A stretch of DNA of 64,000 nt. Source: Anaerolineae bacterium (lineage in GTDB: Bacteria; Chloroflexota; Anaerolineae; DRVO01). Under the pieces are notes generated by a model that was not told the DNA's origin, ran no database searches, and saw nothing but the letters and a program-made list of their open reading frames with translations. The DNA lies in the NCBI GenBank assembly GCA_013178015.1, contig JABLXR010000008.1:1-64000 (forward strand), in the 5' to 3' direction. Position numbers and translations under genes: made by a program. Shown here piece by piece: positions 42,955 to 60,811 of this stretch; position 1 is the stretch's first letter; each line of letters opens with the position of its first letter.

Positions 42955-42994
42955 AATAACAGAAGAGCCCTCGTCCGTTCAGGGACGAGGGCTC
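42955..42994 (-). terminator. T-box-controlled terminator before leuS
   Basis: GAGCCCTCGTCC (42983-42994), 6-base loop, complement (42965-42976), then TTCTGTTATT on the minus strand. Its 5' arm shares the CCCT used in the antiterminator, so the two forms exclude each other. It is also the only terminator after the two tRNA-Ala genes. Confidence 0.92.
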
Positions 42995-43035
42995 GCTCGC
43001 GGTACCACCCTGCTTGGCGGTGCATCAGGCTAAGG

Positions 43036-43107
43036 TGGAGCTGAGGGGATTTGAACCCCTGACCCCTTGTCTGCCAGACAAGTGCTCTCCCACTGAGCTA
43101 CAGCCCC
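43036..43107 (-). tRNA. tRNA-Ala (anticodon GGC), nested in the leuS T-box leader
   Basis: 72-base cloverleaf. Acceptor GGGGCTG/CAGCTCC contains the G3-U70 alanine identity pair; anticodon stem CTTGT/ACAAG around the loop CTGGCAG gives GGC; D-arm GCTC/GAGC with GG in the loop; T-arm AGGGGTTCAAATCCCCT. The discriminator A is followed by CCT, so the full CCA is not encoded. It lies between the Stem I/II part and the antiterminator of the Leu T-box, same strand. Confidence 0.95.
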
Positions 43108-43312
43108 AGATGTCGGACGTCGGGCGCACCGCCCGCTCGAAGGTGTGTAACGTCACCGCTCGGCGCCACTTACTACGATTCAGCGGCGCGGCTCGGGGGC
43201 GAGTTCGGCCTTGCGGGCGGCCTCCGGCGCCCTCGCCGGGGTCCCACCGCTCCACCCGGCTCTCTGCGAGGCTGGCCTAGTACTCCCCGTCACAGCCTTT
43301 GCGCTATTCGGC

Positions 43313-52818: not shown

Positions 52819-54185
52819 CCTATCATCTAAAATCCTACCGAGCGGGTATCGTTCCCTCAATTGATAATCCTACTGGGGGGAGCGATGTCTGCGAGGGAGA
52901 AGATGAGTCGGCAGTCCCGTGAGGAGTATCTCAAGGTGATGCAAGATCGCTATCGCCAGGCCAGCCGCAAGGAACGTTCCCTGCTCCTAGACGAGATGGA
53001 GCAGGTGACGGGCAGGCATCGCAAGCACCTCATCGAGCTCATGGGGCGCCCTGACCTGGGCCGCAGGGCTCGGACTAGAGAGCGAGGAGTTACCTACGGC
53101 CCCGAGGTCAAGTACGCCCTGAGCGTCATCGCCGAGAGCCTGGACTACATCTGCGCCGAGAGGCTCAAAGACAACCTGGGCTGGATGGCCGAGCACCTGG
53201 CCAGCTACGGGCATCTTCAGTTGACCGACAGCCTGGCCCAGCAGCTGGAAAGGATCAGCGTCTGCACCATCCGCCGCCTGCTGGCCGGGATGGAAAAGGA
53301 CGAGTACTACCTTCCCCGCCCCAGACCCAGGCGACCCCAACCCCTCACCCAGGCCATACCCATGAAGCGGTTGGCCTGGAACGAGACCGAGCCCGGCCAC
53401 CTGGAGGTGGACTTGGTCCTTCACTGTGGCTCGGACCCATCGGGTGAGTTCGCCCACAGCCTCCACCTGGTGGACGCCGCCACCGGTTGGAGCGAGATCG
53501 CCGCCATCCTGGGCCGCAGCCAACTGGTGGTGGCCGATGGCTTCCAGCGCCTGCTGACCCGCCTTCCCTTCCCCGTGGTGGAACTGCACCCGGACAATGG
53601 AGGTGAGTTCTTCAACGACCACCTCCTGCGCTTGTTTGCCCACTGGGTGCCCCAGCTACAATGGTCCCGCAGCCGGCCCTACCAGAAAAACGACAACCGC
53701 TTCGTGGAGCAGAAGAACTCCTCCCTGGTACGGGCCTACCTGGGCTACCAGCGCCTGGACACGGTGGAGCAAGTGAGGGCCATGAACCGCCTCTATGAGA
53801 TGCTCAGCCTCTACTACAACCTCTTCCAGCCGGTGCTGCGCCTGCACCAAAAGGAACTAGTCCCTCTGCCGGATGGCACCTACCGCACTCGACGTCGCTA
53901 CGGCCCCGCTTGCACCCCCTTCGAGCGCTTGCGCCAGCTCAAAGGCATTGCCCCGGAAAAGGAGGAGCAGCTACTGCGCCTACGCCAGGACACCGACCCC
54001 CGAATGCTGCGCTCCCAGATCCATGAACTGGCCGCCGCTATCCTGCGCCTGCCCGGCGCCGCCAAGTCCGCCAAGGCCCAAAACGTGTATCTGACCCTAT
54101 ACGCCAACGACACCGAGCCGCCTCTCCCAGTAGGATTATCATCTGATAGAATGACCCCCGCCCGGTAGGATTATCATTTGATTGG
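52819..54185 (+). mobile_element. Insertion sequence with doubled terminal repeats
   Basis: A single transposase gene is flanked by two nested inverted repeats. Outer pair: AATCCTACCGAGCGGG (52831-52846) against the complement of 54157-54172, 15 of 16 bases. Inner pair: TGATAATCCTACTGGG (52862-52877) against the complement of 54126-54141, perfect. All four copies share AATCCTAC, so each end holds two direct copies of the same core, probably transposase binding sites. The exact tips are uncertain (weak similarity extends to CC at 52819 and GG at 54185) and I see no target duplication. Confidence 0.75.
52885..54168 (+). CDS. DDE (integrase-core) transposase
   Basis: 427 aa. The N-terminal helix-turn-helix has REEYLKVMQDRYRQASRKERSLLLDEM and VTGRHRKHLIELM. 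The integrase core has catalytic Asp in HLEVDLVLH, Asp in ELHPDNGGEFF and Glu in NRFVEQKNS. It looks intact. ATG 52885 has GGGGGGAG upstream; the in-frame TTG 52861 lies inside the inner terminal repeat. The stop TAG (54166-54168) lies within the right outer repeat. Family not assigned with certainty. Confidence 0.88.
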   Translation: MSAREKMSRQSREEYLKVMQDRYRQASRKERSLLLDEMEQVTGRHRKHLIELMGRPDLGRRARTRERGVTYGPEVKYALSVIAESLDYICAERLKDNLGWMAEHLASYGHLQLTDSLAQQLERISVCTIRRLLAGMEKDEYYLPRPRPRRPQPLTQAIPMKRLAWNETEPGHLEVDLVLHCGSDPSGEFAHSLHLVDAATGWSEIAAILGRSQLVVADGFQRLLTRLPFPVVELHPDNGGEFFNDHLLRLFAHWVPQLQWSRSRPYQKNDNRFVEQKNSSLVRAYLGYQRLDTVEQVRAMNRLYEMLSLYYNLFQPVLRLHQKELVPLPDGTYRTRRRYGPACTPFERLRQLKGIAPEKEEQLLRLRQDTDPRMLRSQIHELAAAILRLPGAAKSAKAQNVYLTLYANDTEPPLPVGLSSDRMTPAR

Positions 54186-54264
54186 ACACGGTTTGGGTCG
54201 CGGTGTGGCATTCAGACACGGGGCAGCCCGGCTTCGTGCTCCGACCGTGACGCCTGTGCTGGCC

Positions 54265-54294
54265 TTGCCTCCGGCCGGCGTAGTGTGGTATGTT
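54265..54294 (+). promoter_or_regulatory. Promoter of the aromatic amino-acid operon
   Basis: TTGCCT (54265-54270), 18 bases, TATGTT (54289-54294) preceded by TGG, i.e. an extended -10. Predicted start near 54301, 27 bases before the leader peptide ATG. Confidence 0.55.
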
Positions 54295-54327
54295 GGGAGT
54301 TGATCACACGCGGGAGATGCCGGACCA

Positions 54328-54372
54328 ATGCCGCTCGGGGCCTTTGCCTACTACTACCGAGGGTACGCGTAA
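54328..54372 (+). CDS. Tyrosine-rich leader peptide of the aro operon
   Basis: 14 codons, MPLGAFAYYYRGYA, ending TAA: one Phe and four Tyr (all TAC), three of them consecutive. GGGAG lies 11 bases upstream of the ATG. It sits just after the operon promoter and before a terminator-like hairpin. A second overlapping frame from ATG 54317 has no SD spacing. Such peptides sense the charged tRNA supply through ribosome stalling. Confidence 0.7.
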   Translation: MPLGAFAYYYRGYA

Positions 54373-54376
54373 GCGC

Positions 54377-54453
54377 GGCCGGCGCCGGCGTGTTCACTCA
54401 GAGCTAAGATCGGAACCCAAGGCGTGGCCATGACCACGCCTCTTCTCTTTTCT
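54377..54453 (+). promoter_or_regulatory. Transcription attenuator of the aro operon
   Basis: Terminator: AGGCGTGG (54420-54427), loop CCATGA, CCACGCCT (54434-54441), then CTTCTCTTTTCT. Alternative pairing: GGCC (54377-54380) and CGCC (54383-54386) can pair with GGCC (54426-54429) and GGCG (54421-54424), which would break the terminator. The 5' partner starts five bases after the leader stop, so a ribosome finishing the peptide would cover it, whereas one stalled on Tyr codons would leave it free. Confidence 0.65.
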
Positions 54454-54468
54454 CGGGAGTGGACGCAT

Positions 54469-54879
54469 ATGTCGGTAGCTGTACGGGGGGTGCGGGGTGC
54501 CATCACCTGTGAGGCCAACACCGAGGAGGAGATACTCTCGGCCACGCGGGAGCTGCTCTCGACCTTGGTGGCGGCCAACGCGATCGCGCCCGAGGATGTC
54601 GCCAGCGCCTTGTTCAGCCTGACGCCCGACCTGGACGCGGCCTTTCCCGCTCGGGCAGCCCGCGACCTGGGTTGGGTGAGTGTTCCGCTAATGTGCACCA
54701 GGGAAATCCCGGTTCCTGGGGCGCTACCTCGGTGCGTGAGGGTGCTCTTGCACTGGAATACGGAGAAGGCGCAGAGCGAGATAGTGCACCTGTACTTGCG
54801 AGGAGCAGAGGCCCTTCGGCCGGACCTGGCCGAGGAGATGCAGGCCTGTTCTGGGGCCAGATCGGAGGAGTGCAGATGA
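54469..54879 (+). CDS. aroH: Chorismate mutase (AroH class)
   Basis: Chorismate to prephenate. 136 aa. [29 protein letters not shown] is the AroH N-terminus (Arg of the active site, Glu-rich turn). [22 protein letters not shown] and [27 protein letters not shown] follow the Bacillus enzyme, including the Arg after GALP. GGGAG nine bases before the ATG. First structural gene after the attenuator; overlaps aroF by four bases. Confidence 0.94.
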
Positions 54880-55889
54880 TAATCGTCATGCGGATGGGCG
54901 CGTCGGCGGAGGAGGTGGGGGCGGTGACGCGCCAGATCGAGGCCCTCGGGTTTCGGGCCCACCTGTCGCATGGCGAGGAGCGCACCATCATCGGGCTCAT
55001 CGGCGACGAACGGAACGTCAGCCAGCAGAGCCTGGAGCTGCTGGCGGGAGTCGAGCGCGTCATACCCATCCTTCATCCCTTCAAGCTGGCCAGCCGCGAC
55101 TTTCGGCCGGACAACACGGTGGTACAGGTGCGTGGGGTGATGCTCGGCGACCGCCGCGTTATCATCATGGCCGGCCCCTGCGCGGTCGAGAGCGCTCAGC
55201 AGCTGATGGAGACGGCATGGGCAGTCAAGGAGGCGGGTGCGTCTATGCTGCGAGGTGGTGCTTTCAAGCCTCGCACTTCGCCCTACGCCTTTCCTGGCCT
55301 GGGCGAGAAGGCGCTGGAGCTGCTGGCCCAAGCGCGGGAGGCCACCGGCTTGCCGGTGGTGAGCGAGGTGATGGCGCCGGAGAAGGTGGCGCTGGTGGCC
55401 CAGTATGCCGACATGGTGCAGGTGGGCACCCGTAACATGCAGAACTACAGCCTCCTGCACGCAGTGGGGGAGGCTGGCTGCCCGGTGCTCCTCAAGCGGG
55501 GCTTGATGTCCACTATGGAGGAGTTCCTCATGGCGGCAGAGTATATTCTGTCGCACGGGAACTACCAGGTGGTCCTGTGCGAGCGCGGCATTCGCACTTT
55601 CGAAACCTACACCCGCAACACTCTCGACATAAACGCCGTGCCAGTGCTCAAGGGGCTGACCCACTTGCCGGTGACGGTGGACCCGAGCCACGGCACTGGC
55701 AGGTGGGACCTGGTGGAACCGGTGTCGCGGGCGGCCGTCGCCGCCGGCGCCGACGGGCTGATGGTAGAGGTCCACCCCGAGCCTGCCCGGGCACTCTCGG
55801 ACGGGGCTCAGAGCCTGAAGCCCGAGAGCTTTGCTCGTCTGGTCCGGTCTGTCCGGGCCATCGCTGAAGCAGTGGACAGGACCGTCTAG
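54876..55889 (+). CDS. aroF: 3-deoxy-7-phosphoheptulonate (DAHP) synthase, type I-beta with N-terminal regulatory domain
   Basis: PEP + erythrose-4-P to DAHP, the entry step. 337 aa. The N-terminal ferredoxin-like domain (residues 1-70: [21 protein letters not shown]) is as in Thermotoga-type enzymes, where it mediates Tyr inhibition. The barrel shows [60 protein letters not shown] and VDPSHGTG with metal residues. ATG overlaps aroH (ATGA) with GGAGGAG upstream. Confidence 0.94.
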
Positions 55890-55891
55890 CC

Positions 55892-56764
55892 ATGGGAGAT
55901 GAGGGCGGCTTTCCCCCGCCGGGGTACGCGGTGGGCGTGGTGGGGCTGGGCCTGATGGGAGGATCGCTGGCGGCATCACTTCGGCAGGCCTGGCCTCAAG
56001 CACGCATTCTCGGAGTGTCGCGCCGAGCCGAGACCCTCGAGTGGGCAGTGGGACGGGGTTGGATAGACGACGGGGGCATGTCGCTACCTGAGGTACTCGC
56101 GGGCGTACAGCTGGCGGTACTGGCCACTCCGGTGCGCACCATCATCGAGCAAGTGAAAGAGGCAGACGGGCTTCTGCCGCCTGGGGCTGTGCTGACCGAT
56201 GTGGGCAGCACCAAGCTGGAGGTTGTGGCAGCCATGAGCCGCACCGGCCGCCCGGATCAATGTGTGGGCGGGCACCCCATGTGCGGCAGGGAGAGCAGGG
56301 GCCTGGAGGCGGCCGAGCCGGACCTGTACCGGGGTGCCACCTGGGTTCTGTGCCCGAGCCGGGCCACAGCCCCGGGTACGGTGCAGGTCGTCAGCTCTCT
56401 GGCGCGCGCTGTGGGCGCCCGACCTCTGATACTGGATGCGGCCGAACACGACGCCATCGTGGCCCGCACTAGCCATCTGCCTTACCTGGCTGCGTCGGCG
56501 TTGGCGCGGGCAGTGGCGGAGGCCGTGCCCGAGGGCGACCTGCGGGCGCTAAGCGCCGGGGGCTACCGGGACACGACGCGACTGGCTGCCAGCGACGTGA
56601 GCATGATGCTCGACATCCTGCTTACCAACCGCGCCCACGTCCTGGCCGGGCTGCAGGCGCTCCAGCAGCAGCTGGGCAAGATAGAGCAGGCGTTGGCGAG
56701 TGGGGACGAACCCGGGCTGGCCGTCCTCCTGGAGGGGGCGCGGCAGTCGAGGAGGGTGCCATGA
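55892..56764 (+). CDS. tyrA: Prephenate dehydrogenase
   Basis: Prephenate + NAD to 4-hydroxyphenylpyruvate, toward tyrosine. 290 aa. VGVVGLGLMGGSLAASLR nucleotide site, VLTDVGSTKLEVV, VGGHPMCGRESRG (catalytic His), and EHDAIVARTSHLPYLAAS (second His), all as expected. No ACT domain, so feedback may rest on the leader and on DAHP synthase. Two bases after aroF; overlaps aroA by four. Confidence 0.94.
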   Translation: MGDEGGFPPPGYAVGVVGLGLMGGSLAASLRQAWPQARILGVSRRAETLEWAVGRGWIDDGGMSLPEVLAGVQLAVLATPVRTIIEQVKEADGLLPPGAVLTDVGSTKLEVVAAMSRTGRPDQCVGGHPMCGRESRGLEAAEPDLYRGATWVLCPSRATAPGTVQVVSSLARAVGARPLILDAAEHDAIVARTSHLPYLAASALARAVAEAVPEGDLRALSAGGYRDTTRLAASDVSMMLDILLTNRAHVLAGLQALQQQLGKIEQALASGDEPGLAVLLEGARQSRRVP

Positions 56765-58047
56765 ACCGGGAGGTGCAGCCCGCGCGCCGCCTGATGGGCG
56801 AGGTGCGGGTCCCAGGCGACAAGTCCATCACCCATCGCGCCCTGCTTCTGGGAGCAGTGGCGGAGGGCGATACACTGGTGCGTGGCTACCTCGAGAGTGG
56901 GGACTGCCGGGCCTCGGTGGATGCGGTCCGCGCCTTGGGGGCCCCGGTGGAGGACGCCGGGCCCGGCACTCTCCGAGTTCGGGGTCTGGGTCCGGCGGGA
57001 CTGCGCGAGCCCGGGGACGTGGTCAACTGCCGGGGCTCGGGGACCACCATGCGGCTGCTGGCGGGGCTGGTGGCCGGCTTTGACCTGACTTGCGTGCTTA
57101 CTGGCAACGACTCCTTGCGGCGGCGCCCTATGGGCCGAATCGTGGAGCCGCTGCGGCAGATGGGCGCTGTCGTCCTGGGCCGAGACGGCGATCGGTTCCC
57201 GCCCATCACCGTGCGGGGCGGCGCCCTTCGGGGCATAGACTACGCCCTGCCCGTGGCCAGCGCCCAGGTCAAGTCGTGCCTGCTGCTGGCCGGTCTCCGG
57301 GGCCAGCAGCCCACCACCGTTCGGGAGCCTGGACCTACTCGGGATCACACTGAGCGGATGCTACGGGCCATGGGCGCTCGAGTGAGGGCGGAAGGAGCGG
57401 CCATTACCGTCGAGCCTGCAGCGCGACTTGCGCCCCTGGAGCTGGTGGTTCCGGGCGACCTGTCCTCGGCTGCCTTCCTGGTGGCGGCCGCGACGCTAGT
57501 GCCCGGATCGGGCGTTTTGATCGAGGGTGTGGGGGTAAATCCCACCCGCACCGGCTTTCTGGACATCGCCCGCGCCATGGGGGCCAATGTGCGGTTGGAG
57601 GGCGAGCGCCTGGAGGGGGGCGAGCCAGTGGCGGACCTGGTGGTACGCTCGGCGTCCCTGCGCCCCACCAAGGTGGCGGGGGAACTGGTGCCCCGAGCTA
57701 TAGACGAGCTGCCTCTGGTGGCCGTCCTCGCTACCCAGGCTGACGGTGTCACCGAGGTGCGGGAGGCATCGGAGCTGCGGGTGAAGGAAAGCGACCGGGT
57801 GGCCACTCTGGTGAGTGAGCTGCGGGCGCTGGGCGCCCGCATCGAGGAGTTGCCGGACGGGTACGTGGTGGAAGGGCCGACGCCTCTGCGGGCCACCACG
57901 GTCTCCAGCCACGGGGACCATCGCCTGGCCATGGCCCTGGCGGTGGCGGCGCTGGTGGCCGATGGCCCGGTTACCATCGAGGGCGCCGAGTGCGCCGATG
58001 ACTCCTTTCCCGGGTTCTTCGAGGTTCTCGATAGGATGCGGGCGTGA
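56761..58047 (+). CDS. aroA: 5-enolpyruvylshikimate-3-phosphate synthase
   Basis: Shikimate-3-P + PEP to EPSP. 428 aa. Motifs: VPGDKSITHRALLLGAVAEG, GDVVNCRGSGTTMRLLAGL, LTGNDSLRRRPMGRI, SAQVKSCLLLAGL, DELPLVAVLAT and VSSHGDHRLAMALAVAAL. All active-site Lys/Arg/Asp/His patterns are in place. Overlaps tyrA and aroC by four bases. Confidence 0.96.
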   Translation: MNREVQPARRLMGEVRVPGDKSITHRALLLGAVAEGDTLVRGYLESGDCRASVDAVRALGAPVEDAGPGTLRVRGLGPAGLREPGDVVNCRGSGTTMRLLAGLVAGFDLTCVLTGNDSLRRRPMGRIVEPLRQMGAVVLGRDGDRFPPITVRGGALRGIDYALPVASAQVKSCLLLAGLRGQQPTTVREPGPTRDHTERMLRAMGARVRAEGAAITVEPAARLAPLELVVPGDLSSAAFLVAAATLVPGSGVLIEGVGVNPTRTGFLDIARAMGANVRLEGERLEGGEPVADLVVRSASLRPTKVAGELVPRAIDELPLVAVLATQADGVTEVREASELRVKESDRVATLVSELRALGARIEELPDGYVVEGPTPLRATTVSSHGDHRLAMALAVAALVADGPVTIEGAECADDSFPGFFEVLDRMRA

Positions 58048-59225
58048 GCGGGTTGCGGTTCCTGACGGCAGGTGAGTCGCACGGCCCGGCTCTGGTTGCC
58101 ATCGTGGAGGGTACCCCAGCAGGGCTGCGGCTGAGTCAGGAAGACATCCGGCGGGACCTGCGCCGGCGCCAGGTGGGCTACGGCCGCGGTGGCCGGATGG
58201 CCATCGAGAGCGATGAGGGGGAGATCCTTGCCGGTGTCATCAATGGGGTCACATCGGGTGCGCCCATCGCCATCCTGGTGCGCAACCGCGACTGGGCCAA
58301 CTGGCGCGATCGTCCCTGGCCTCGCCTGTCTATCCCCCGCCCGGGTCACGCCGACCTGCCGGGGGTGCTGAAGTACGAGTTGGATGACTGCCGACCGGTG
58401 TTGGAGCGGGCCAGCGCCCGGGAGACGGCAGCCCGGGTGGCTGCCGGGGCGGTGGCTCGGCGGGTACTGCAGGACTGCGGAGTCGCGGTAGGCTCTTACG
58501 TGGAGGGTATAGGCGAAGCCGCTCTCCCGCCCCTGGAGCCGCACTGGGAGCTTGTGCAGCAGGCGGACGAGAGCGACGTGCGCTGTCCTGACCCAGAGAC
58601 GGCCGACGCCATGCGTCGAGAGATAGATCGGGCTCGGGCCGACGGGGACTCGCTGGGAGGGGTGCTGGTGGTGCTGGCGACTGGCCTGCCGCCGGGGCTG
58701 GGCTCGCACGTGCAATGGGACCGACGCCTAGACGGGCGGCTGGCCCAGGCGGCCATGAGCGTTCAAGCGATCAAGGGAGTGGAGATCGGACCCGCCTTCG
58801 CCAATGCCACGCAGCGCGGCACGCGGGTCCACGACGGCATAGTACCGTCGTCCGAGGGGCCGGTCACGGTGGGGGAGGCAGGCCGGCTGCGCGCGTCCAA
58901 CCGGTGCGGCGGCCTAGAAGGCGGCATGACCACGGGGCAATTGCTGGTGCTGCGGGCAGCCATGAAGCCCATCCCTACCACTCTCGCTCCCCAGCCATCT
59001 CTGGACCTGGACAGCGGGCAGGCGACGGAAACCCGCTACGAGCGCTCAGACGTGTGCGCGGTGCCCGCGGCCGCAGTGGTGGTGGAAGCGATGGCTTGTC
59101 TGGTTCTCGCTGACGCCCTGCTGGACAAGTTCGGCGGCGACTCGATGGCATCTCTCCAGGCAGCCTTGTCACGGTACCTGGAACGACCGCTGGTCGGGCC
59201 CGGAGCAGCGAGGGGGGACGGTTGA
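58044..59225 (+). CDS. aroC: Chorismate synthase
   Basis: EPSP to chorismate, needing reduced FMN. 393 aa. LRFLTAGESHGPALVAIVEG, RRQVGYGRGGRMAIESD, RPGHADLPGVLKYE, ARETAARVAAGAVAR and GGMTTGQLLVLRAAMKPIPT match the family signatures. GTG start overlapping aroA. Ends overlapping the aroK-aroB gene (TTGA). Confidence 0.96.
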   Translation: MSGLRFLTAGESHGPALVAIVEGTPAGLRLSQEDIRRDLRRRQVGYGRGGRMAIESDEGEILAGVINGVTSGAPIAILVRNRDWANWRDRPWPRLSIPRPGHADLPGVLKYELDDCRPVLERASARETAARVAAGAVARRVLQDCGVAVGSYVEGIGEAALPPLEPHWELVQQADESDVRCPDPETADAMRREIDRARADGDSLGGVLVVLATGLPPGLGSHVQWDRRLDGRLAQAAMSVQAIKGVEIGPAFANATQRGTRVHDGIVPSSEGPVTVGEAGRLRASNRCGGLEGGMTTGQLLVLRAAMKPIPTTLAPQPSLDLDSGQATETRYERSDVCAVPAAAVVVEAMACLVLADALLDKFGGDSMASLQAALSRYLERPLVGPGAARGDG

Positions 59226-60811
59226 GCCGAGACTTGGCGCGTAACCTAGTGCTCACCGGGTTCATGGGGAGTGGCAAGACAGAGGTGGGCCGAGCGGTGG
59301 CCGAGCATCTCGGCCGGCGCTTTGTGGACATGGACGAAGTACTAGCGCGGCGGCTGGGCATGAGCGTGCCCGACATCTTCCGGCGACTGGGAGAGCCCTT
59401 CTTCCGGGCTGAGGAGAGTCGGCTGGCTCGGGAACTGGCGGACGAGCGCGAGTTGGTGATCGCCACAGGAGGCGGCACCCTGGTGGATCGCGGCAACCGG
59501 GAGGCGCTGGGGGCCACGGGCTTGCTGGTGCGGCTGACGGCGTCGCCGGAAGCGTTATGGGAGCGGGTCTCGGGCACTCGGGGGCGGCCCATGCTGGAAG
59601 CGGGCGATCGCCGGGGGCGCATGGAGGAGCTCCTCCAGCAGCGCGAGCCGGCCTACCGAGAGATACCGCATCAGGTGGACACCACCGGACTGGCGGTGGA
59701 GCAGGTCGTGGCTCGAGTGGTGGACATCGCTGCCAACGCCGAGCACACCGGCGAGCGCGCCCTGGGGGTGCACTACCCCGGTGGCTTCTACCCCGTGTTC
59801 GTCACCCGCGGGGGACTCAAGGCCGCCGGCCTGTACCTGCGGTCGCGGGGCCTGGTCGGGCGGGTGGCCGTGATTGGCGACGATACGGTCGTCGACTTGT
59901 GGGGCGAGACCCTGGTGCGCGGCCTAGCGGAGCGAGGCCTGGACGCCACTGTGCTGAGGTTCCCCGCCGGCGAACGCAGCAAGACGCTGGCGACGGTGGA
60001 GAGCCTGGTGACCGACATGGTGGAGGCGGGCCTCGGGCGCGACTGCATCGTGATTGCCCTGGGTGGCGGGGTAGTGGGGGACACGGCCGGGCTGGTCGCG
60101 GCCCTCTACATGCGTGGCGTGCCTCTGGTGCAGGTACCCACCACGCTTCTGGCGGCCTTCGACTCGAGCGTGGGAGGCAAGGTGGCCGTGGACCTACCCG
60201 CGGGCAAGAACCTGGTGGGCGCGTTCAAGCAGCCGGATTTGGTGCTGGTGGACGCGGAGTGTATGGAGACCCTGCCGAACGAGGAGAGACGGGCCGGCCT
60301 GGCGGAGGCGGTCAAGCATGGTGTCATCGCCGATCCGGAGCTGTTCCGGAGACTGGAAACGGGCCAGTATGACCTGTTGGAGGTGATCGAGCGTTCCATC
60401 CGGGTCAAGGTCGGCGTGGTGGAGGAGGACCCCTACGAGCAGGGCCGCAGGGCCGTGCTCAACCTGGGGCATACCTTTGGACACGCCTACGAGAAGCTGA
60501 GCGACTTCCGGCTAAGACACGGCGAGGCAGTTGCCATCGGCATGGTGCTGGCGGCTCGACTGGCCCGGCACCGGGGGCTTACGGCGCCGGACCTGGAGGA
60601 ACGGCTGGTGGCCTGCTTGCAGACGACGGGGTTGCCGGTGAAACCGCCTCCCTATGTGCCTGACGCGGTCCTGGGCGCCATGCAGGCGGACAAGAAGCGC
60701 CGCGCAGGCCGCCTTCGATTCGTCTTGCCCCTGGCCTTGGGCGACGTCCGGGTCTACGACGACGTGACCGAAGAGGAGTTGCGCGCCGTCCTGCCCGCGG
60801 GCGACTCCTGA
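59222..60811 (+). CDS. aroKB: Shikimate kinase - 3-dehydroquinate synthase fusion
   Basis: One 529 aa protein with two enzymes. Residues about 1-170 are shikimate kinase: LTGFMGSGKTEVG (Walker A), VDMDEVLARRLG, ATGGGTLVD and TRGRPML (lid). Residues about 185-529 are dehydroquinate synthase: GGGVVGDTAGLVAALYMRGV, PTTLLAAFDSSVGGKVAVD, AEAVKHGVI, LNLGHTFGHAYE and RHGEAVAIGM with metal residues. TTG start overlaps aroC by four bases. Fusion ensures equal amounts of two shikimate-pathway steps. Confidence 0.95.
   Translation: MSRDLARNLVLTGFMGSGKTEVGRAVAEHLGRRFVDMDEVLARRLGMSVPDIFRRLGEPFFRAEESRLARELADERELVIATGGGTLVDRGNREALGATGLLVRLTASPEALWERVSGTRGRPMLEAGDRRGRMEELLQQREPAYREIPHQVDTTGLAVEQVVARVVDIAANAEHTGERALGVHYPGGFYPVFVTRGGLKAAGLYLRSRGLVGRVAVIGDDTVVDLWGETLVRGLAERGLDATVLRFPAGERSKTLATVESLVTDMVEAGLGRDCIVIALGGGVVGDTAGLVAALYMRGVPLVQVPTTLLAAFDSSVGGKVAVDLPAGKNLVGAFKQPDLVLVDAECMETLPNEERRAGLAEAVKHGVIADPELFRRLETGQYDLLEVIERSIRVKVGVVEEDPYEQGRRAVLNLGHTFGHAYEKLSDFRLRHGEAVAIGMVLAARLARHRGLTAPDLEERLVACLQTTGLPVKPPPYVPDAVLGAMQADKKRRAGRLRFVLPLALGDVRVYDDVTEEELRAVLPAGDS

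Follow-up and report, generated by a model that had tools for sequence, protein, structure and literature searches.

The window (the whole 64,000-nucleotide stretch analysed here, bases 1-64000 of contig C8 of an Anaerolineae bacterium, the closest named relatives of which are MAGs of Anaerolineae/Ardenticatenia) carries an aroH-aroF-tyrA-aroA-aroC-aroKB run behind a short open reading frame rich in tyrosine codons. This arrangement raises the question whether the leader senses aromatic amino acids and thereby controls the operon. An original prediction had placed a tyrosine-specific leader-peptide attenuator here. The logic of such a switch is that of the trp, his and phe attenuators. As in the trp attenuator, the antiterminator strand of the window follows the stop codon of the leader. 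Based on the analyses described below, we consider it very probable that the region controls the six-gene run by ribosome-mediated transcription attenuation, with charged tRNA-Tyr and, to a lesser degree, tRNA-Phe as the signal. The locus would be one case of a Phe+Tyr leader attenuator at aroH that occurs class-wide and in part of the phylum. The features of the locus are collected in Table 1.

Table 1. Positions of the leader, switch and operon features in the window
Feature	Position	Strand	Basis
Candidate promoter-like stretch, weak, TTGCCT-15-TGGTAT	54265-54291	+	sequence reading
Shine-Dalgarno-like GGGAG, 11 nt 5' of leader ATG	54312-54316	+	sequence
Leader peptide ORF MPLGAFAYYYRGYA*	54328-54372	+	direct sequence reading
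Sole Phe codon of the leader, TTT	54343-54345	+	sequence
Tyr codon triplet TAC TAC TAC, proposed stall site	54349-54357	+	sequence and class-wide spacing
Fourth Tyr codon of the leader	54364-54366	+	sequence
Antiterminator strand C	54374-54386	+	duplex with 54421-54432, -18.7 kcal/mol
Terminator 5' arm and loop (D), common to antiterminator and terminator	54420-54433	+	pairing computation
Intrinsic terminator hairpin AGGCGTGG-CCATGA-CCACGCCT	54420-54441	+	terminator scan, folding; kept in congener G001
T-rich tail CTTCTCTTTTCT, interrupted	54442-54453	+	sequence
Shine-Dalgarno-like GGGAG of aroH	54455-54459	+	sequence
aroH, monofunctional chorismate mutase	54469-54879	+	TIGR01796, 147.5 bits
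aroF, DAHP synthase (B. subtilis type)	54876-55889	+	NF006421 / TIGR01361
tyrA, prephenate dehydrogenase	55892-56764	+	several models, all below cut-offs, best E 6e-62
aroA, EPSP synthase	56761-58047	+	TIGR01356
aroC, chorismate synthase	58044-59225	+	TIGR00033
aroKB, shikimate kinase-3-dehydroquinate synthase fusion	59222-60811	+	shikimate kinase models (first third), TIGR01357 (rest)

The leader peptide was read directly from the sequence, in agreement with the original prediction. The predicted ORF consists of the codons ATG CCG CTC GGG GCC TTT GCC TAC TAC TAC CGA GGG TAC GCG TAA. These 14 sense codons include one Phe and four Tyr, a content fitting an attenuator, and a blind leader search also retrieved the ORF. 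The promoter proposed ahead of it is a tentative assignment and had been overstated, since no sigma-70-type site passed a consensus promoter scan and the candidate stretch is a poor one. This stretch can be loosely aligned with TTGCCG-TAGTAT of the congener G001. Upstream, an insertion element (52831-54182) lies between rpsT and the aro leader. It encodes a DDE transposase with weak IS481/IS3 similarity and has imperfect inverted repeats of about 54 nt. The element is missing from G001, where rpsT adjoins the aro promoter region.

Genes were assigned with NCBIfam models, and aroH, aroF, aroA, aroC and the aroB part of aroKB scored above curated cut-offs. The aromatic operon is thus backed by these gene calls. 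Its description as a complete pathway was too strong, because dehydroquinase and shikimate dehydrogenase are absent from the run. The pheA gene of the same genome is found on a separate contig (C18) behind another gene, and an aromatic leader was looked for upstream of it and not found. A second aroF copy is present in this genome (L088, G000 C8:67948-68934, minus strand) and has a counterpart in G001 (L087). Both copies have a short leader that holds a GC-rich hairpin and then ATTCTGTT immediately ahead of the start codon, and no leader peptide was seen at either. In five other loci (L009, L033, L034, L038 and L043) a tandem pair of aroF-like copies is located within an aroH-pheA-aroF-tyrA operon.

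The predicted intrinsic terminator sits between the leader ORF and aroH, where an attenuator would have it. It is the sole terminator-like site within 54100-54600 (0.2 expected), and its hairpin has a z of -3.2. The T-rich tail that had been described is present, but it is interrupted. The original prediction had also proposed a pairing of 54377-54386 with 54421-54429. This pairing exists, and the best duplex between strand C and the terminator strand D is slightly longer (54374-54386 with 54421-54432). Compared with shuffles, the duplex reached p = 0.06 at this single locus. Antiterminator and terminator are predicted to be mutually exclusive, since both need the common strand 54421-54432.

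The prediction had suggested a comparison with the leaders of relatives. Therefore, 90 non-redundant aroH-upstream regions from the class were scored by their best leader ORF, counted as Phe+Tyr codons per 8 codons. At least five such codons in 8 were present in 80/90 regions. With a threshold of at least four, 85/90 regions carried a Phe/Tyr leader ahead of a terminator. As a control, dinucleotide shuffles reached at least five in 0.5% of cases and the reverse strand in 0/90 regions. Control pairs of amino acids other than Phe and Tyr gave 0-1/90. Phe/Tyr leaders were found in 31 of the 34 sampled families; examples are GFSFSFYFYYY, AFFFAYYFYAYFY and GVYFYYYYFPF. In essentially all 85 loci the leader is followed, usually 18-37 nt past the stop codon, by a strong hairpin and a T-rich tail. 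The sequence of these hairpins varies across the loci while their complementarity is kept. In most relatives strand C belongs to the leader ORF itself and precedes the stop by about 20-35 nt. The window leader is atypical in this respect: it is among the shortest of the set, and its stop precedes the antiterminator strand.

Some other Chloroflexota families have similar leaders (for example SRFYTYFYYFTS) and others have none. Outside the phylum, a Phe/Tyr leader and a terminator were observed at aroH/aroF in two loci (L064 and L039), and the leaders read FEYYYYFRW in a Thermotogaceae MAG and FYFSYYYF in a Deltaproteobacteria MAG. We also asked if the leader peptides are generally translated from leaderless mRNA, by looking for a -10 box 4-12 nt ahead of an in-frame start. 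Such a box was detected in 16/85 loci, compared with 11.6 in shifted controls, which is not significant, and leaderless mRNA was rejected as a general rule. In one family (f27: L120, L132, L137, L153, L162 and L167) the leader ATG consistently follows a TAGAAT box by 10 nt. For this family the spacing suggests a leaderless leader-peptide mRNA.

The position of the antiterminator relative to the aromatic codons was then compared over the 85 loci. Strand C starts a median of 15 nt (IQR 13-19) past the last aromatic codon. In the window, the end of the TAC triplet (54357) lies about 15 nt before strand C and therefore has the class-wide median spacing. Pairing of C with the terminator arm alone gave a modest signal (27% of loci at p<=0.05). 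Addition of the loop resulted in a clear one, with the pairing of C to the 5' arm and loop beating shuffles at p<=0.05 in 49/85 loci. Strand C also fits the terminator loop of its own locus better than the loops of other loci (-5.6 vs -3.0 kcal/mol, p = 3.5e-8). With one genome per family, this loop-strand covariation had a median p of 8e-4 and a p of 0.008 in the worst of 40 draws. The interchanging C/loop pairs are CATCGC/GCGATG, GGCTGC/GCAGCC, GGTTGC/GCAACC and CGCCATTC/GGAATGGC. Because the loop is unpaired in the terminator, its covariation is specific to the antiterminator and is unexplained by terminator pairing. The parts of the attenuator, their conservation, spacing and covariation are thus established by computation. 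As expected from the original prediction, the comparative leaders, the spacing and the covariation strongly support ribosome-mediated attenuation as the most fitting reading of these sequences.

Switching was modelled on nascent RNA that ends before the 3' arm of the terminator exists. For the window, a ribosome on a Tyr codon gave a modelled antiterminator probability of 0.72-0.94, compared with 0.09 for a ribosome at the stop and 0.00 for an unoccupied leader. The codons are hence placed such that, in the model, a stalled ribosome frees strand C and a terminating ribosome masks it. The class means of the modelled probability were 0.80 in the stalled and 0.34 in the unoccupied state, and the stalled value was the higher one in 78/85 loci. 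At equilibrium the complete terminator prevails in the window, whatever the ribosome position (0.96-0.99). Therefore, antitermination in the window would have to be kinetic and depend on the order in which the structures form.

Transcription start, leader translation, termination, stalling and the response to amino acids are what we infer from these data, and the mechanism may be pictured as follows. With ample aromatic aminoacyl-tRNA, the ribosome would translate the leader as far as its stop and would there cover strand C. With this strand covered, the terminator would form and transcription would end before aroH. If Tyr-tRNA runs low, the ribosome would stall on the TAC triplet with its leading edge just before 54373. 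In this stalled state strand C could pair with the 5' arm and loop of the terminator before the 3' arm has been transcribed, and the polymerase would read on into the operon. In most relatives the translating ribosome would mask C in passing, because C is inside the leader ORF.

The claim of a tyrosine-specific sensor had to be modified. It fits this genome and a Tyr-rich minority of 12/85 leaders with a single Phe and at least three Tyr codons, the window among them. However, both Phe and Tyr codons are present in all 85 leaders, and the clusters contain 300 Phe and 296 Tyr codons in total. Thus the class-wide switch would sense both amino acids. Tyr control had further been connected to the lack of pheA in the operon. 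The mean Phe fraction was 0.52 with pheA in the operon (n=18) and 0.37 without it (n=14), with p = 0.03 when phylogeny is ignored, which speaks weakly for this connection.

Leaders are present across the class, but the aromatic codons are missing in the single usable congener. Readable upstream DNA was available for one congener, G001, and the contig of G002, from the same family, ends before the leader. G001 keeps the terminator almost unchanged and retains a C:D pairing (-22.5 kcal/mol). A Phe/Tyr cluster was absent from its upstream ORFs, and a DNA search for the window leader gave no match in this genome. The original prediction would have been refuted by relatives that keep the operon without Tyr codons or hairpins, and G001 is half such a case, retaining operon and hairpins and lacking the Tyr codons. 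In the upstream region of G001 (L084, 950-1110), an ATG about 9 nt past a TAGTAT box opens a 30-codon ORF without aromatic residues. The loss of the sensor may be confined to G001, or the sensor may be decaying in the whole genus. According to the latter possibility, the window would hold a relic of the ancestral class-wide attenuator, whose leader no longer regulates properly while the hairpins persist. The state of G001, the short and untypical window leader and an antiterminator that is marginal against shuffles agree with such decay. We nevertheless regard it as unlikely, since 5 aromatic codons in 8 remain in the window leader, the TAC triplet is at the class-typical +15 and the modelled switching is clear.

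Control by a different RNA element, that is a T-box, a riboswitch, a leader bound by a protein or masking of the ribosome site of aroH, would leave the small ORF incidental or make it a micropeptide. T-boxes do occur in the genome of the window. One T-box leader (74.6 bits) is located directly upstream of trpE (L254/L248, G000 C33:36073-36921, minus strand), with UGG at the aligned specifier position. Eight further hits were obtained in this genome, most of them below the gathering score. A weak T-box hit on the minus strand of the window (42978-43302) overlaps a tRNA gene and is probably spurious. In addition, 54388-54399 pairs with 54457-54466 around the terminator in the minimum-energy fold, which would mask part of the aroH ribosome site. 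At the aro leader itself Rfam revealed no family at gathering or permissive thresholds, and none matched 19 related loci. With a threshold as loose as E<=1, 54200-54500 had no Rfam hit, the T-box family (RF00230) included, and the covariance models for leaders of Phe, Trp, His and other amino acids did not match at the window. Outside the Phe/Tyr cluster and the residues that strand C encodes, the leader peptides have nothing in common, unlike a conserved micropeptide. Another kind of RNA-level control is therefore highly improbable here. A chance ORF with Tyr codons beside an ordinary terminator, without any regulatory link, is likewise highly improbable: the leader region is GC-rich, TACTACTAC would give Thr or Leu runs in other frames and the promoter is weak, but leader and terminator recur class-wide where a few per cent or less would be expected, and the covarying antiterminators already contradict this reading.

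The attenuator was also compared with described systems. T-box leaders of trp genes, including trpE, have been reported in Dehalococcoides (PMC2494555). Like the attenuator, the T-boxes there and at trpE here sense tRNA charging and act by antitermination on aromatic amino acid synthesis. In contrast to the attenuator, they bind uncharged tRNA directly, without a leader peptide, and belong to the Trp branch rather than to the aroH operon. With trpE behind a T-box and the aro operon behind a leader peptide, two tRNA-charging sensors thus share the aromatic pathway.

The closest functional relative is aroR, an attenuator upstream of aroF in Corynebacterium glutamicum (Neshat et al. 2014 via PMC11802643; leader in PMC4046766), compared here by function and codon content only. 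It likewise has a short Phe-Tyr-Phe leader peptide before a DAHP synthase operon and acts by ribosome stalling. It differs in belonging to another phylum and in having one FYF motif, whereas the Chloroflexota leaders have a cluster of 4-8 aromatic codons, dominated by Tyr in the window. For aroR, PMC11802643 reports an effect of Phe limitation and none of Tyr availability. Since a leader containing FYF responds to Phe and not to Tyr, codon content alone cannot settle which amino acid matters.

In the enterobacterial pheL/pheA, pheST and trpL systems, too, a stalled ribosome leaves an antiterminator strand free to compete with an intrinsic terminator, but amino acids and genes are different. 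Most Chloroflexota leaders have this strand inside the ORF, in contrast to its position after the stop in the enterobacterial attenuators. Further candidates are the uORFC-13-1 motif, which lies beside a terminator upstream of aroF in Acholeplasma (PMC8632094), and shikimate-associated uORFs with Phe and Tyr (PMC6429828). These are also predicted Phe (and Tyr) leader peptides before shikimate genes, but they come from other lineages and are predictions without a Chloroflexota set. The string "Chloroflex" is absent from the main text of both papers. Searches of the open-access literature found no earlier report of such an attenuator in Chloroflexota.

The mechanism is of a known kind, and its distribution is broad and apparently new. 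We lean towards the view that an undescribed lineage-wide regulator is at work here. Across Chloroflexota, in Anaerolineae and in at least some further families, the aroH/aroF operon would be under a dual Phe+Tyr leader-peptide attenuator of ancestral origin, whose antiterminator strand mostly falls within the last codons of the peptide and which operates in the same cell as T-boxes for trp. The genus of the window, without pheA in the operon, would be retuning it to Tyr, and a sister species would have lost the sensor. Leader-peptide attenuation is best known from proteobacteria and actinobacteria. The data suggest that it serves as the usual control of the common aromatic pathway in a deep phylum with mostly uncultured members, and that the sensor there reads Phe and Tyr jointly. 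They also suggest that one genome may use two tRNA-charging sensors, a leader peptide for the trunk and the Tyr branch and a T-box for Trp. The large and divergent set of leaders, including one without aromatic codons but with hairpins, may serve to study how the specificity of such a sensor changes and how a sensor dies.
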